Under the pieces are notes generated by a model. That model saw only the letters and a list, made by a program, of their open reading frames with translations, was not told the DNA's origin and made no database searches. Source: Bacteriovorax sp. Seq25_V (lineage in GTDB: Bacteria; Bdellovibrionota; Bacteriovoracia; Bacteriovoracales; Bacteriovoracaceae). From it: a stretch of 64,000 bases of DNA. Each line of letters opens with the position of its first letter. Position 1 is the stretch's first letter. Positions 31,570 through 37,067 of this stretch are shown here, one piece after another. The translations under genes were made by a program, and so were the position numbers. The stretch covers positions 1-64,000 of the forward strand of contig NZ_AUNI01000021.1 in the NCBI RefSeq assembly GCF_000447795.1. The letters are read 5' to 3'.

Positions 31570-33084
31570 ATGTTTAAACTATTAGGTAACTATTACTACG
31601 GAAAATATACTCAACCAATTACGACAGGTGCAGGTGCTACTGAAATATTTATAAAAAGAGAATGTCCTAGTGACACAGATATTACACTTTGGACACTTCC
31701 TGTTGATTATTCGCATGTTGATGATGTGATTGAGTCGTCAGTTAAAGGTTTTAAAACTTGGAGAAACACTTCCCTAGAAGAAAGGATTCAAATTTTAAGA
31801 AACTACCAAAGTATTTTAAAAGACAAATTTGACGATATCGCAAAGTCTATTGCACTCGAAGTTGGTAAACCACTTTGGGAAGCAAAAACAGAAGCAAACT
31901 CACTTATTGCAAAAGTTGACGTTACAATTTCTGACTCTTTGCCACGAATTGAGTCTAAGACTTTTAATAACATCATGCCTGATACAAATGGGTACGTGCA
32001 CTTTAAGCCGATCGGTCCATCACTGATTATCGGCCCCTTCAATTTCCCATGCCATTTAGCTAACGGACAAATTCTAAGTGCTCTAATCTCTGGTAACTCA
32101 ATCATCTTTAAGCCCTCAGAAAAGACTTGCTACAGTTCTCAACTCATGTTTGATTGCCTAGCAAAAGCAGGTTTTCCAGAAGGTGTAGTTAACTTGATTC
32201 AAGGCGATGGTGAAACAGCTAGACGTCTTTTAAAGTCAAAAGAGATTAAAGGTGTCTTCTTCACTGGCTCAAAAGATGTTGGTCTCAAGATCCTAGAAGC
32301 AACACATTCGGACTTATCAAAACTTGTATCCCTTGAACTGGGTGGTAAAAATACTGCAATTGTTGATGAAACAGCTGATCTTGACTTTGCTCTTGAAGAA
32401 CTAATTAAAGGTGCTTTTTTAACTGCTGGTCAACGTTGCACTTCTACCGCCATTGTCGCTATTCACGAATCAATTGCAGATGATTTTATTAATCGTTTTC
32501 ATGATTTAGCGAAGAGACTAATTGTTGATCACCCTCTCGATAGTGAAGTAGAACCATTTATGGGTCCTCTAATCGACCAACGTTCTGTTGATCAGTATTT
32601 GCTCTTTATGGGAATGGCAAAGCGTGAAGGAATTCAAGAAATAATGCGTGGAAAGCACCTTGAAAAAGCGAAACATGGTTACTATGTAACACCATCGATT
32701 CATCGTACTGATAAGTTTGATCCAAAATCACATTTCTTAACAAGTGAAATTTTTGGGCCTAATTGTACATTTATCACTTACAAAAACTTCGAAGATGCTA
32801 TTGATATTGCAAATAGTACAGAATATGGTCTTGCGGCTTCTGTCTTTACTAAAGACCCAGAACGCTTCAAGTATGCTGTTCAAAATATAGATAGTGGTCT
32901 TATTAACTTAAATAGATCAACAGTTGGAGCTAGTGCAAAACTTCCATTTGGTGGGGTTAAAAACTCTGGAAACTACCATCCGGCAGCTGTAACGACTATA
33001 GATTCATGTGTATACCAAATGGCGACACTCGAAATTTATAATACTCAGGCAACAGGTAATATTCCTGGACTAATGAATAGTTAA
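31570..33084 (+). CDS. astD: Succinylglutamate semialdehyde dehydrogenase
   Basis: An NAD-dependent aldehyde dehydrogenase of 504 residues that would oxidise N-succinylglutamate semialdehyde to succinylglutamate. Diagnostic motifs are IGPFNFPCHLANGQILSALI, KPSEKT, FTGSKDVG, the general-base glutamate in LVSLELGGKN, and the catalytic cysteine in AGQRCTSTA. Context in an astC-astA-astD operon supports AstD rather than another ALDH. AstB (dihydrolase) and AstE (desuccinylase) are not in the window. Its last bases overlap the convergent gene's stop. Confidence 0.93.
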   Translation: MFKLLGNYYYGKYTQPITTGAGATEIFIKRECPSDTDITLWTLPVDYSHVDDVIESSVKGFKTWRNTSLEERIQILRNYQSILKDKFDDIAKSIALEVGKPLWEAKTEANSLIAKVDVTISDSLPRIESKTFNNIMPDTNGYVHFKPIGPSLIIGPFNFPCHLANGQILSALISGNSIIFKPSEKTCYSSQLMFDCLAKAGFPEGVVNLIQGDGETARRLLKSKEIKGVFFTGSKDVGLKILEATHSDLSKLVSLELGGKNTAIVDETADLDFALEELIKGAFLTAGQRCTSTAIVAIHESIADDFINRFHDLAKRLIVDHPLDSEVEPFMGPLIDQRSVDQYLLFMGMAKREGIQEIMRGKHLEKAKHGYYVTPSIHRTDKFDPKSHFLTSEIFGPNCTFITYKNFEDAIDIANSTEYGLAASVFTKDPERFKYAVQNIDSGLINLNRSTVGASAKLPFGGVKNSGNYHPAAVTTIDSCVYQMATLEIYNTQATGNIPGLMNS

Positions 33085-33590
33085 TATTGTTTTTTATCGA
33101 TAAGAACACCGGCTCGGGAAGATTTTGTTAGATCATCTTTCAAAATCTTCTCCTGCTCAATGTCTACATTGGCATTTTTCATATATAAGCCCATGACTTC
33201 TTTCTTTTTAAGCTTGGACTGAACATATTTAAATCTTTCTTTTTCGTTTAAGATGAAAAGTGAAGTTACTACAGACTCACCTTTTTTATTAACAGCCGTA
33301 TTTTCGAATTCTTTTTTATGAAAGAAGTGCTCAATATATTCGCACACCTCAGAACCAGCAACTTCATACACCCTTTCAACTTCAGCAACATCTTCTTGCT
33401 TCTTATTAAAAGGTAGAATCTTTGCACCCTCACCATTTTCTGCAAAGCTTGGTAGAGCATCATCCTCGTAAAGGTCCATAAGGTCCGTCAAGGCCCTTCT
33501 CGAACTTCCAGTAGAGGCATTCGTCAGCTCAGCAATTTCTTCTGGCGTCAGAATTCTAAGAATGTCGGTCAAAAATGATAATGCTGCCAT
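33081..33590 (-). CDS. Unknown cytoplasmic protein
   Basis: A 169-residue, charged, lysine- and glutamate-rich protein with no signal peptide or membrane segment and no domain I recognise. The N-terminal segment ILTPEEIAELTNASTGSSRR looks like a helix-turn-helix-sized helix pair but lacks a clear DNA-binding signature. It is convergent with and overlaps astD by four bases; its promoter side faces the tRNA-Asn gene 165 bases away. No operon partner. Confidence 0.55.
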   Translation of the reverse strand: MAALSFLTDILRILTPEEIAELTNASTGSSRRALTDLMDLYEDDALPSFAENGEGAKILPFNKKQEDVAEVERVYEVAGSEVCEYIEHFFHKKEFENTAVNKKGESVVTSLFILNEKERFKYVQSKLKKKEVMGLYMKNANVDIEQEKILKDDLTKSSRAGVLIDKKQY

Positions 33591-33755: not shown

Positions 33756-33830
33756 TGGGATGTGGCGCAGCGGTAGCGCAGTAGACTGTTAATCTATTGG
33801 TCCGGGGTTCGAATCCCCGCATCCCAGCCA
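33756..33830 (+). tRNA. tRNA-Asn (GTT)
   Basis: A full cloverleaf: acceptor TGGGATG paired with CATCCCA, anticodon loop CTGTTAA with GTT, T-arm CGGGGTTCGAATCCCCG, discriminator G and encoded CCA, as expected for asparagine tRNA. The 3' end is only 13 bases from the GTG of the downstream HExxH protein gene. Confidence 0.97.
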
Positions 33831-33843
33831 TTTTTAAATCATC

Positions 33844-35208
33844 GTGAAAAAAATCAATCTTCTATCTACTAAATACCATCAATCTCTTTTTAAGAGTTTA
33901 CGTAGACAATATTCTGATAATATCGATATGTATCGTGATGATGTCGAAGAAGATTATGAGAATACTCACCTCACTGATTCGTTTCAAAATTTTTTCAAAG
34001 AAGCTATTTTCAACTCCAACCTTGATGAGTATTGCGCTCTTAATTGGTATTGGTTCCAGCTAATTGAAAAGATGGTCCATGTCATTGGTCTGCATGAAGA
34101 ATTAGTTGTTTCTGATGATTTTAATTTGTCAGATTCTGAAGATGAGCTTTTTAATTTTTGGAATGAAAGTGATTATGCAAAGAGCTTCCTTACGCAGCTA
34201 AATGATACAAAAGACTTACTTCTTGTATCAAAGTCACACTTGTTACTACTCGAGCAGCAAATAATTGGCTTCTATTTATTACATATTGGCTTTATTCCTA
34301 ATCAAGAAGCTACATACTATAATATTCCAGAGATTGGCGATGGCGAGAATAGGGTTTATAGCTATCGTTTAAACGCATTCTTCTCAGATGTCGGAACTCG
34401 AGAAGGACATATTGTTTCTTTAACAACAGATGTAGATACACTTTATGTTAATGGCAAGAAAGAAACAAACTCAATCAATCTCTTTAGTGATGAGCTTCTT
34501 TTACTTTCTTCGTCTTCAGATATTGATAGTGAGCTTCAGACAATTACATCCTCTGTAAATAAGGCTTTAACTGTACTCAAAGAGATCGCTCCAGATCTTC
34601 ATGAGACTTTCACAAGCTTTACGAAGTATATAATTCCAATTAATGAAAAAGGAATCGTTAGCTATTCAATGCAAATGCTTCCAGGTTATTCATGCATCAA
34701 TATGTTTGAGCGCGATTTTGTTGATCTAATTGATGATCTTCTTCATGAAAATGGTCACCATTTCATGAATGCTATTTTAAATCTTGAAGAATTGATTCAT
34801 GAAGATGATGAGAAGATCTATTATAGCCCATGGAGGCGTGCTCTAAGACCTATCCGTGGCATCTATCACGCATATTTTACATTCTATTGGGCCTATGAAC
34901 TTTTCTACCGCCTGGCGCTTTTCATTGAGCAGAATCCTGATCAACAACACTTTAATGAATCTGAAGTACTTAAAATTCAGACTCGTTTCATTGAAGAATA
35001 TTACATGTTAACTTTCTGCGAATCTGATATGAAGAAAGCCAATAAAGACGGGAAGCTAACAATTGAAGGTTTCGAAGTTTTCAAGATTATTCATACACGT
35101 ATTGAAAGTCATCACCAAAGTGTTGAGGCTATTGAGAACAGAATTCAATCAGCAGAAATTAAAGAACTGAAAGAACATTTAGCTCAAACAAAATCACATT
35201 ATTTATAA
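33844..35208 (+). CDS. HExxH-motif protein of the peptide-modification (mod_HExxH) type
   Basis: A 454-residue cytoplasmic protein. The metal-binding motif is LLHENGHH, with His301, Glu302 and His305, followed after about 23 residues by YYSPWRRALRPIRGIYHAYF (Ser328, Trp330, Arg331, Arg335, Pro336, His342). HE..H followed by an 'xPWR..xRP..g..H..YA' block is the signature I associate with the mod_HExxH family found in RiPP (modified peptide) clusters; His342 would be the third ligand. The N-terminal 280 residues are acidic and unfamiliar. The GTG start has no visible ribosome site and lies 13 bases after tRNA-Asn. No precursor peptide, radical SAM or exporter gene is nearby. A classical zinc protease is an alternative. 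Confidence 0.68.
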   Translation: MKKINLLSTKYHQSLFKSLRRQYSDNIDMYRDDVEEDYENTHLTDSFQNFFKEAIFNSNLDEYCALNWYWFQLIEKMVHVIGLHEELVVSDDFNLSDSEDELFNFWNESDYAKSFLTQLNDTKDLLLVSKSHLLLLEQQIIGFYLLHIGFIPNQEATYYNIPEIGDGENRVYSYRLNAFFSDVGTREGHIVSLTTDVDTLYVNGKKETNSINLFSDELLLLSSSSDIDSELQTITSSVNKALTVLKEIAPDLHETFTSFTKYIIPINEKGIVSYSMQMLPGYSCINMFERDFVDLIDDLLHENGHHFMNAILNLEELIHEDDEKIYYSPWRRALRPIRGIYHAYFTFYWAYELFYRLALFIEQNPDQQHFNESEVLKIQTRFIEEYYMLTFCESDMKKANKDGKLTIEGFEVFKIIHTRIESHHQSVEAIENRIQSAEIKELKEHLAQTKSHYL

Positions 35209-36729
35209 TATGTTTTTTAAAGAATTCATTCGAGACTGCATTTCATTTGCAGGCATCATCTCACCTTGAGTCGAAGCTATTTCTATCCCTGCCTTATAAA
35301 CATCAATTGCAACATGATAATCTTTTAACGCCTCAAGAATTTTACCTTTTAAAAGATAAGCCTGTGAATATTTTGGTTTTACATTTAAAACCACTTCTAC
35401 TTTGGCTAGAGCATTCTCATAATCATCACGTTTATAGAAAATATCTGCTAGACCAAAGTTTGCAATATCATCCTCCGGATCTATCTCAAGGACTTGATAG
35501 AACATTCCTTCTCTGCGCTTCAGGTCTTCTAATTCCTGCTGCTTCTTAGCCTCTATCTCTTTTTTTAACTTCGCCTCATCTCCAAATTTTTTAAAACTTG
35601 CCACTGTTGCTAAAGATTTTTCTTCCTCTGCCTCTTCAATTTTGCCAAGCTTCATTAGGTATAAAGACTTATTTGTATGGGCCATTACCGAATCTGGATC
35701 GACTTCTAGAAGCTCATCCATTACGTCGATTGCTTCTTGAAATTTATTCTGCTGCCCTAAGATTGCACCTTTAACTTCATAAGCATCGGCGAACTTAGGA
35801 TTTAACATTTGAACAGACTGAATCAGCTCAAGTGCATGGGCTTCATCCCCATAATGAAATATTTCAATTGCTCTATGATAGAGATCATCTGCTAATTGGG
35901 TATGATCAAGTCCGCCGAGTGGAGCACTTGTATGAATAATTAGTTTTTTTCCATCAAAGAAGTATTCCTTGCCGTTCACACGGTGTTTTCTTTGAAGGTT
36001 AACTTCCTTATAAAACTTGTCATTAAACTTAACAGACTTAGTACCTGAAATAGTGTCTTCTTCTAATTGGAATTCATTTGAAAAATCAGTTTCACAACTT
36101 ACCCAACAAGGATATTTCGCCGCCCCACGACGAGTCTCAATCTTAGAAACTGTTTCTTGTCCTAGAAAGCACCCTTTTTTATAATCAACTGCGAGCTCAT
36201 TAAGACGAGTATCATTAATTAAAGTTCCAAGAGTAATTGTATGACCAAGAGATGGCCATGCAGAAAGAAGATAAAGCTCTTCTAAATCATTATCAGAAAC
36301 TCCTTCACTTTCTATTTCAACAAAAGAAATAAGAGCAGGAAGATTAAGATAATTTCCTCTACTCACATCTTCAAAAGTTTTATCTAGAGCCTTAAAACCG
36401 AAATAAAATTTTGGTTCACGTTCATCATGCACAATCTCAACTTCTTCCATAATAAGAAATTTATCTAACTCTGAGATAATTGAATCTTGTAGCTCAGGCT
36501 GTGAAATAATAAGAAATTGATCCTCATTTTTTACAAGGTAGAAGAAACTATGAATTCTTCCGTTACGGTCAAGTCTTGCATTAAGCTGAAAAGAACCGAC
36601 TGCTAACTTATTCAGGTCGTTAGTTAATTGCCGCTGTAAAAACTCTTGAGCATCAACTCCTCTAACTATGACAGAAGAGAATTTTTGTGCACTTTTATAT
36701 AATTTTTTAGAATTGTAGATATTTCGCAT
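35203..36729 (-). CDS. YgfZ/GcvT-like folate-binding domain fused to TPR repeats
   Basis: A 508-residue fusion. Residues 1-250 form a YgfZ/IBA57-type folate-binding domain, shown by LQRQLTNDLNKL, ARLDRNGRI and the diagnostic KKGCFLGQETVSKIETRRGA, whose Cys is the conserved KGCxxGQE residue. Residues 290-500 carry at least four TPR units (for example GDEAHALELIQSVQMLNPKF and QNKFQEAIDVMDELLEVDPD). YgfZ supports maturation or repair of certain Fe-S proteins. It follows iscA-type gene by two bases. The TPR fusion is not something I know for this family. Its stop overlaps the convergent HExxH gene by six bases. Confidence 0.85.
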   Translation of the reverse strand: MRNIYNSKKLYKSAQKFSSVIVRGVDAQEFLQRQLTNDLNKLAVGSFQLNARLDRNGRIHSFFYLVKNEDQFLIISQPELQDSIISELDKFLIMEEVEIVHDEREPKFYFGFKALDKTFEDVSRGNYLNLPALISFVEIESEGVSDNDLEELYLLSAWPSLGHTITLGTLINDTRLNELAVDYKKGCFLGQETVSKIETRRGAAKYPCWVSCETDFSNEFQLEEDTISGTKSVKFNDKFYKEVNLQRKHRVNGKEYFFDGKKLIIHTSAPLGGLDHTQLADDLYHRAIEIFHYGDEAHALELIQSVQMLNPKFADAYEVKGAILGQQNKFQEAIDVMDELLEVDPDSVMAHTNKSLYLMKLGKIEEAEEEKSLATVASFKKFGDEAKLKKEIEAKKQQELEDLKRREGMFYQVLEIDPEDDIANFGLADIFYKRDDYENALAKVEVVLNVKPKYSQAYLLKGKILEALKDYHVAIDVYKAGIEIASTQGEMMPANEMQSRMNSLKNIL

Positions 36730-36731
36730 TT

Positions 36732-37067
36732 TTATACTGTGAACGATTCACCACATCCACACGTATTTGTTGCGTTTGGATTAACAAAAACAAATCCCTT
36801 ACCATTAAGACCATCTTTATAATCTAGTTCAACGCCCTTTAGGTAAATTGAAGATTTTGGATCAATAAATACTCTCAGTTTTCCAAACTTCATTTCGTTG
36901 TCTTTATCTTTTTTCTCAGAGAAATCAATTTTATAAGATAAACCTGAACAGCCACCCCCGACAACGCCAAGTCTTAGACCAATAGTCTCAAATGACTTGC
37001 TCTCTTTTTCAAAGATTTCAGTAATATGTGCGATTGCTTTTTCTGATATATTTACTATGTTTTCCAC
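36732..37067 (-). CDS. A-type iron-sulfur carrier (IscA/ErpA family)
   Basis: A 111-residue A-type carrier that accepts and delivers Fe-S clusters. It has the three conserved cysteines: GGGCSGLSYKI and the terminal TCGCGESF pair, with the typical FVNPNATNTCGCG ending. The beta-rich core LRLGVVGG is present. IBA57/YgfZ and ISCA proteins act together in late Fe-S assembly, so its place directly upstream of the YgfZ-TPR gene suggests a joint role. IscA, ErpA and SufA cannot be told apart reliably here. Confidence 0.92.
   Translation of the reverse strand: MENIVNISEKAIAHITEIFEKESKSFETIGLRLGVVGGGCSGLSYKIDFSEKKDKDNEMKFGKLRVFIDPKSSIYLKGVELDYKDGLNGKGFVFVNPNATNTCGCGESFTV

Follow-up and report, generated by a model that had tools for sequence, protein, structure and literature searches.

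A stand-alone alpha-KG-HExxH-type peptidyl beta-hydroxylase homologue at a conserved tRNA-Asn locus of the Bacteriovoracaceae

The Bacteriovoracaceae are a family of the Bdellovibrionota with predatory species. The window considered here is a stretch of 64,000 nucleotides from Bacteriovorax sp. Seq25_V, in which a single intact ORF with a GTG start codes for a 454-aa protein, hereafter the HExxH protein (Table 1). It contains LLHENGHH and SPWRRALRPIRGIYH: the motifs LLHENGHH and SPWR...RP...H (residues 328-342), singled out in an earlier sequence-only reading, thus lie in an uninterrupted frame. Besides the tRNA-Asn(GTT) gene that precedes it, no further tRNA-Asn was found in this genome; on the other side of the ORF, the gene for a YgfZ-TPR protein meets it tail-to-tail with a 6 nt overlap. 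The flanks had been described as a tRNA and an Fe-S assembly gene: the former stands, while the latter does not adjoin the ORF, as the YgfZ-TPR gene intervenes and the IscA gene comes next. The neighbors scanned with Pfam are astC, astA, astD, YgfZ-TPR, IscA, FHA, cobalamin adenosyltransferase, SH3 and cNMP-binding proteins; the ten scanned include no gene for a peptide, a radical SAM enzyme or an exporter, as had been stated. The longest gene-free stretch beside the ORF is about 166 nt; hence, the intergenic spaces are too short for a peptide gene. No conserved short gene was found near the HExxH gene in about 36 loci, and searches with PHROGs and PADLOC returned nothing useful. A linked precursor, partner enzymes and an exporter, the hallmarks of a RiPP biosynthetic cluster, were all tested for and none was found.

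Table 1. Features at and within the HExxH locus (window coordinates).
Feature	Coordinates	Strand	Evidence or context
Gene 3, 169-aa protein, function unassigned	33081..33590	-	Divergent from tRNA-Asn/HExxH; family-wide; no Pfam match
tRNA-Asn(GTT), CCA encoded	33756..33830	+	13 nt upstream of HExxH ORF, same strand
alpha-KG-HExxH-type peptidyl beta-hydroxylase homologue	33844..35208	+	TIGR04267, AF2 model, VIA alignment, leader sequence
N-terminal 280 residues, helical and beta region, common to ChlBH HExxH domain and SjiH	33844..34683	+	VIA alignments from residue 1
HExxH metal-binding motif His301/Glu302/His305	34744..34758	+	Homologue alignment; aligns with HE..H of ChlH; lost in genus g23
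SPWRxxxRPxxGxxH block Ser328-His342	34825..34869	+	Homologue alignment; aligns with SPWREDLRPPSGLLH of ChlH
YgfZ/GcvT-like folate-binding domain and TPR protein	35203..36729	-	Pfam GCV_T and TPR; convergent, syntenic
IscA/ErpA-type Fe-S biosynthesis protein	36732..37067	-	PF01521 E = 1.7e-18

Membership of the HExxH protein in the alpha-KG-HExxH family is secure by both sequence and fold. Residues 238-370 match TIGR04267 (mod_HExxH), a curated NCBIfam domain presently named 'aKG-HExxH-type peptide beta-hydroxylase', with 65.5 bits (E = 5.8e-18) against a cut-off of 40 bits, and the same model is matched by 46/46 aligned homologues. No Pfam model matches the protein, and thus no peptidase family. 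It is the sole TIGR04267 protein encoded by the whole genome, and its named relatives come from Bacteriovorax and other Bacteriovoracaceae. A profile alignment with ChlH (8s5f) using HMMER (E = 1e-13) brings HE..H, SPWR, RP, G and H into register, the aligned ChlH segments being VSFS, SLIHEHRHQ and SPWREDLRPPSGLLHA. The assignment to the mod_HExxH family originally proposed from the motifs is therefore borne out by the curated profile, by this residue-level alignment and by a whole-length structural match.

Across the homologues S328, P329, W330, R331, R335, G339, H342, R381, E384 and E385 are invariant (46/46), and position 320, considered as the third, Glu ligand that a gluzincin would have, is Glu in 45 and Asp in one. 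His301, Glu302 and His305 are likewise invariant in all 46; since the set was picked on HE..H, this is not an independent test, but the conservation of the second block is. By homology, the SPWRxxxRPxxGxxH block is likely to form the alpha-ketoglutarate/metal site. The counterpart of His342 is a His in ChlH and a Gln in SjiH; hence, this residue is not fixed as the third metal ligand.

An AlphaFold (AF2) model built from the alignment of the 46 homologues has a mean pLDDT of 92.8. In Foldseek searches with it, clear relatedness was confined to SjiH (22ob, E 8.5e-10) and to the ChlBH HExxH domain (8s5f, E 1.9e-7). In VIA-align comparisons the latter aligns over 295 residues in the range 1-424 (Z 23.7) and SjiH over 356 residues in the range 1-444 (Z 22.7), whereas M1 peptidases and other zincins score Z about 7, the same level as unrelated rows. 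The comparison to the mod_HExxH family that had been suggested thus returned alpha-KG-HExxH enzymes as the best structural matches; a classical zinc protease, the outcome set against the family assignment, is not what the model matched, and the profile search did support mod_HExxH. At most 98 residues of the protein are unaligned to SjiH, and of the first 280 residues 192 or more align; hence, the N-terminal region belongs to the known alpha-KG-HExxH fold. The earlier statement that these 280 residues have no recognized fold was wrong, their fold being that of ChlBH and SjiH.

The long form with the catalytic motif is present in 73/115 Bacteriovoracaceae genomes; outside the family, only weak, different and shorter proteins were recovered (291 phylum genomes). 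Nearly all catalytic copies lie at one place, with gene 3, then tRNA-Asn and the HExxH gene in one direction, and YgfZ-TPR and IscA converging upon them. The order across about 36 loci is constant: astC-astA-astD, gene 3 (divergent), tRNA-Asn, HExxH, YgfZ-TPR (convergent), IscA, FHA, cobalamin adenosyltransferase and mutase. In 26/30 loci (L040-L069) tRNA-Asn directly precedes the HExxH gene, in the same orientation and no more than about 140 nt away; of the remainder, three have an extra ORF inserted and in one the gene is relocated. In most of the genomes without the HExxH gene that were examined, tRNA-Asn still adjoins gene 3. On a 41-species tree built from neighboring proteins, the presence of the HExxH gene changes three times and its catalytic state four times. 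Pairwise distances correlate to a similar extent for HExxH-MCM (0.59), HExxH-YgfZ (0.62) and MCM-YgfZ (0.58). The few changes in presence, the distance correlations and the retention of tRNA-Asn and gene 3 in place together indicate a vertically inherited resident gene rather than a roaming RiPP cluster. The label 'orphan' given to the gene consequently holds in that no RiPP cluster surrounds it, but not in the wider sense, as it is conserved in synteny within the Bacteriovoracaceae. About a third of the family genomes lack it; hence, it is not essential. The raw co-occurrence of YgfZ and HExxH (71/2 versus 24/18, Fisher p = 8e-8) had pointed to a functional link, which we dropped because no more than 3 independent pairs could be drawn from the tree (sign test p about 1). 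Two atypical copies were also observed: in G004 the gene (L073:1221-2641, minus strand) is split into several frames, either by draft-sequence error or as a recent pseudogene, and G013 encodes in another context a 404-aa HExxH protein (L071:6714-7928, plus strand) with a variant SPW..P....H motif that is not matched by TIGR04267.

In the loci examined, the gap between tRNA-Asn and the HExxH gene is often 5-13 nt, T-rich and devoid of a Shine-Dalgarno site, and no such site is visible in the 13 nt following the tRNA in this genome. This arrangement suggests that tRNA 3' processing might release a nearly leaderless HExxH mRNA. Two loci, L052 and L053, have a terminator-like hairpin between the tRNA and the HExxH gene; hence, co-transcription with tRNA-Asn cannot be general.

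A distinct situation is seen in one genus, g23, whose copies (G027, G102 and G115; L069:7017-8447, L128:7289-8725 and L129:3741-5187) occupy the same chromosomal place. In these His301 is replaced by Gln, Glu302 by Ser or Thr, His305 by Leu and His342 by Arg, and SPWR is lost; YgfZ is also absent from these genomes. The two complete copies, of 476 and 478 aa, share 62% identity and differ at codon positions 1/2/3 by 0.28/0.18/0.55. With dS saturated (NG86 dN 0.26) the argument for selection is made from codon positions: these differences, along with the open frame, indicate that the protein is still under purifying selection. Conservation peaks in the catalytic core in most other homologue pairs, but in these copies the core no longer exceeds the remainder of the protein. 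A model of the g23 protein keeps the fold (Z 21.9 to 8s5f), though its alignment included catalytic homologues. As the protein persists without its catalytic residues, part of the role of the HExxH protein may be non-catalytic.

The protein encoded by gene 3 combines a conserved N-terminal LLRILTPEEIxELT segment and a near-invariant C-terminal tail, G[VI]L[VI][ND]KK[QH]x-COOH (here GVLVNKKQ), with a middle region that is probably disordered. Gene 3 is found in 99/115 Bacteriovoracaceae genomes, including 31/42 of those without a catalytic HExxH copy; hence, it has a purpose of its own. We considered its product as a substrate and rejected it: the tail is unchanged in genomes with HExxH, without it and with a dead copy, and therefore the enzyme does not explain it. 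A search of the genome limited to NHLP leader peptides found none.

Other HExxH proteins were noticed at further loci. Short alpha-KG-HExxH paralogues of about 260-305 aa, with TIGR04267 scores of about 32-44 bits (L106-L113, L115-L117 and L072, e.g. L109:2583-8633), are found in operons with a family-5 solute-binding protein (SBP_bac_5) and a HATPase_c sensor kinase, and sometimes also an MFS protein, a sigma-54 response regulator and a small exported protein. This composition points to a hydroxylase-containing peptide-sensing system of an undescribed kind. At L114:4321-7431 (minus strand) an exported protein in which [V/I]EA[A/S]DLVAKKLRDR recurs three times in near-identical form is followed by a HExxH protein of 356 aa and a protein resembling oligopeptidase A; this looks like a RiPP-type precursor with its modifying enzyme and protease.

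Characterized alpha-KG-HExxH members hydroxylate the beta-carbon of His, Asp, Phe, Gln or Pro in peptides, with Fe and alpha-KG (PMC12636437, PMC13060819), and by analogy with these relatives the HExxH protein would follow the same chemistry. The reading that we hold to be rather probable, if far from assured, is that of a stand-alone Fe/alpha-KG peptidyl beta-hydroxylase, vertically inherited in the Bacteriovoracaceae, acting on a cell protein encoded elsewhere and not on a cluster-encoded RiPP precursor. The gene stands alone at one fixed spot behind the sole tRNA-Asn, which makes an ordinary cell protein the probable target. The sequence-only reading had offered two options, a substrate encoded elsewhere or a housekeeping protein; as far as sequence goes this is supported, with vertical inheritance and fixed synteny strengthening the latter. 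Mechanistically, a mononuclear non-haem Fe(II) would be held by His301 and His305, probably joined by His342 or Glu320, and alpha-ketoglutarate would be bound by Arg residues of the SPWRxxxRP block. O2 would then give rise to an Fe(IV)-oxo species, and this would hydroxylate a side chain within a protein segment docked on the N-terminal part, so that the cellular target would be modified at one residue or a few. The gene would probably be expressed as part of the transcript of the sole tRNA-Asn, from which 3' maturation of the tRNA would leave the nearly leaderless mRNA.

Several other explanations have to be weighed against a hydroxylase of an ordinary cell protein. The enzyme could be a RiPP tailoring enzyme whose precursor and partner enzymes lie at another genome site, for all characterized alpha-KG-HExxH enzymes act on RiPP precursors (PMC12636437, PMC13060819) and pathways with unlinked parts are known. 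Family-wide fixed synteny and vertical inheritance are, however, unlike mobile RiPP clusters; the absence of an NHLP-type leader, in a search that is non-exhaustive given how diverse precursors are, and the lack of a second TIGR04267 protein also count against it, and we regard it as unlikely but deserving of attention. A nearer candidate substrate is the gene 3 protein, which adjoins the enzyme in nearly all loci and has a precursor-like make-up: a leader-like conserved N-terminal segment, a variable middle and a conserved tail, whose Asn/Asp and Gln/His are residue types that the family hydroxylates. Yet the tail is equally conserved without HExxH and alongside a dead copy, and gene 3 persists in most genomes without a catalytic copy, which makes this improbable.

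The g23 copies in three genomes, with all catalytic residues replaced in an open frame under purifying selection and a predicted fold that is kept (in a model whose alignment included catalytic homologues), invite the notion that the protein serves mainly in a non-catalytic capacity, by scaffolding or binding, with hydroxylation secondary. In most other pairs the catalytic core is nevertheless the most conserved part, as expected if catalysis is selected, and we give this notion little credence. That a small molecule or tRNA is hydroxylated instead of a protein might be surmised from the linkage to the genes for tRNA-Asn and arginine succinyltransferase (astC-astA-astD); however, these stay put in genomes without the enzyme and no characterized member acts on such substrates, making it very improbable. 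Least probable of all is a classical zinc metalloprotease: while the HExxH motif, the zincin-like core and the hydrolytic cleavage seen when PflC is given a truncated substrate (PMC12636437) are compatible with it, the structural scores (Z 22.7-23.7 to alpha-KG-HExxH enzymes versus about 7 to peptidases), the lack of a match to any Pfam peptidase family and the invariant SPWRxxxRxxxGxxH block all count against it.

As far as we found, all characterized alpha-KG-HExxH enzymes in the open literature make natural products, acting on RiPP precursors. We tentatively propose, at somewhat short of even chances, a non-RiPP housekeeping branch of the family: a protein hydroxylase of predators that would act on a core cell protein, be expressed nearly leaderless from the sole tRNA-Asn transcript and be retained as a pseudoenzyme in one genus. 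If true, the alpha-KG-HExxH fold would also carry out ordinary bacterial protein hydroxylation, like the canonical 2-oxoglutarate oxygenases. A branch that is precursor-free, vertically inherited and syntenic offers a tractable system for target finding, and the dead but conserved g23 copies a natural experiment separating binding from catalysis; for genome miners, a TIGR04267 match need not mark a RiPP cluster.

The closest known systems resemble the HExxH protein in distinct ways. ChlBH, an alpha-KG-HExxH beta-hydroxylase fused to a radical SAM domain, shares with it the fold of the whole HExxH domain (ChlH, 8s5f) and the aligned HE..H, SPWR, RP and G..H positions; however, the identity is 17%, and the protein reported here has no radical SAM domain and no precursor peptide and lies outside any RiPP cluster. 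SjiH (22nu, 22ob) has the same fold over its whole length and matches in sequence around the HExxH motif and the PWR block, but is 14% identical and has a Gln at the position of the invariant His342. PflC/PosC of Pseudomonas and PesO of Peribacillus are, like the HExxH protein, stand-alone members of the same InterPro/TIGR family; their genes adjoin those for precursor peptides, MNIO enzymes and transporters (PMC12636437, PMC13060819), whereas the HExxH locus has no such neighbors. For the g23 copies, a precedent of a kept but inactivated HExxH domain is the inactivated beta-hydroxylase extension of FxsBH (NF040587, rSAM_lost_HExxH); that model, however, describes a radical SAM fusion, whereas the g23 copy that was tested is a stand-alone protein with no match among the NCBIfam models.
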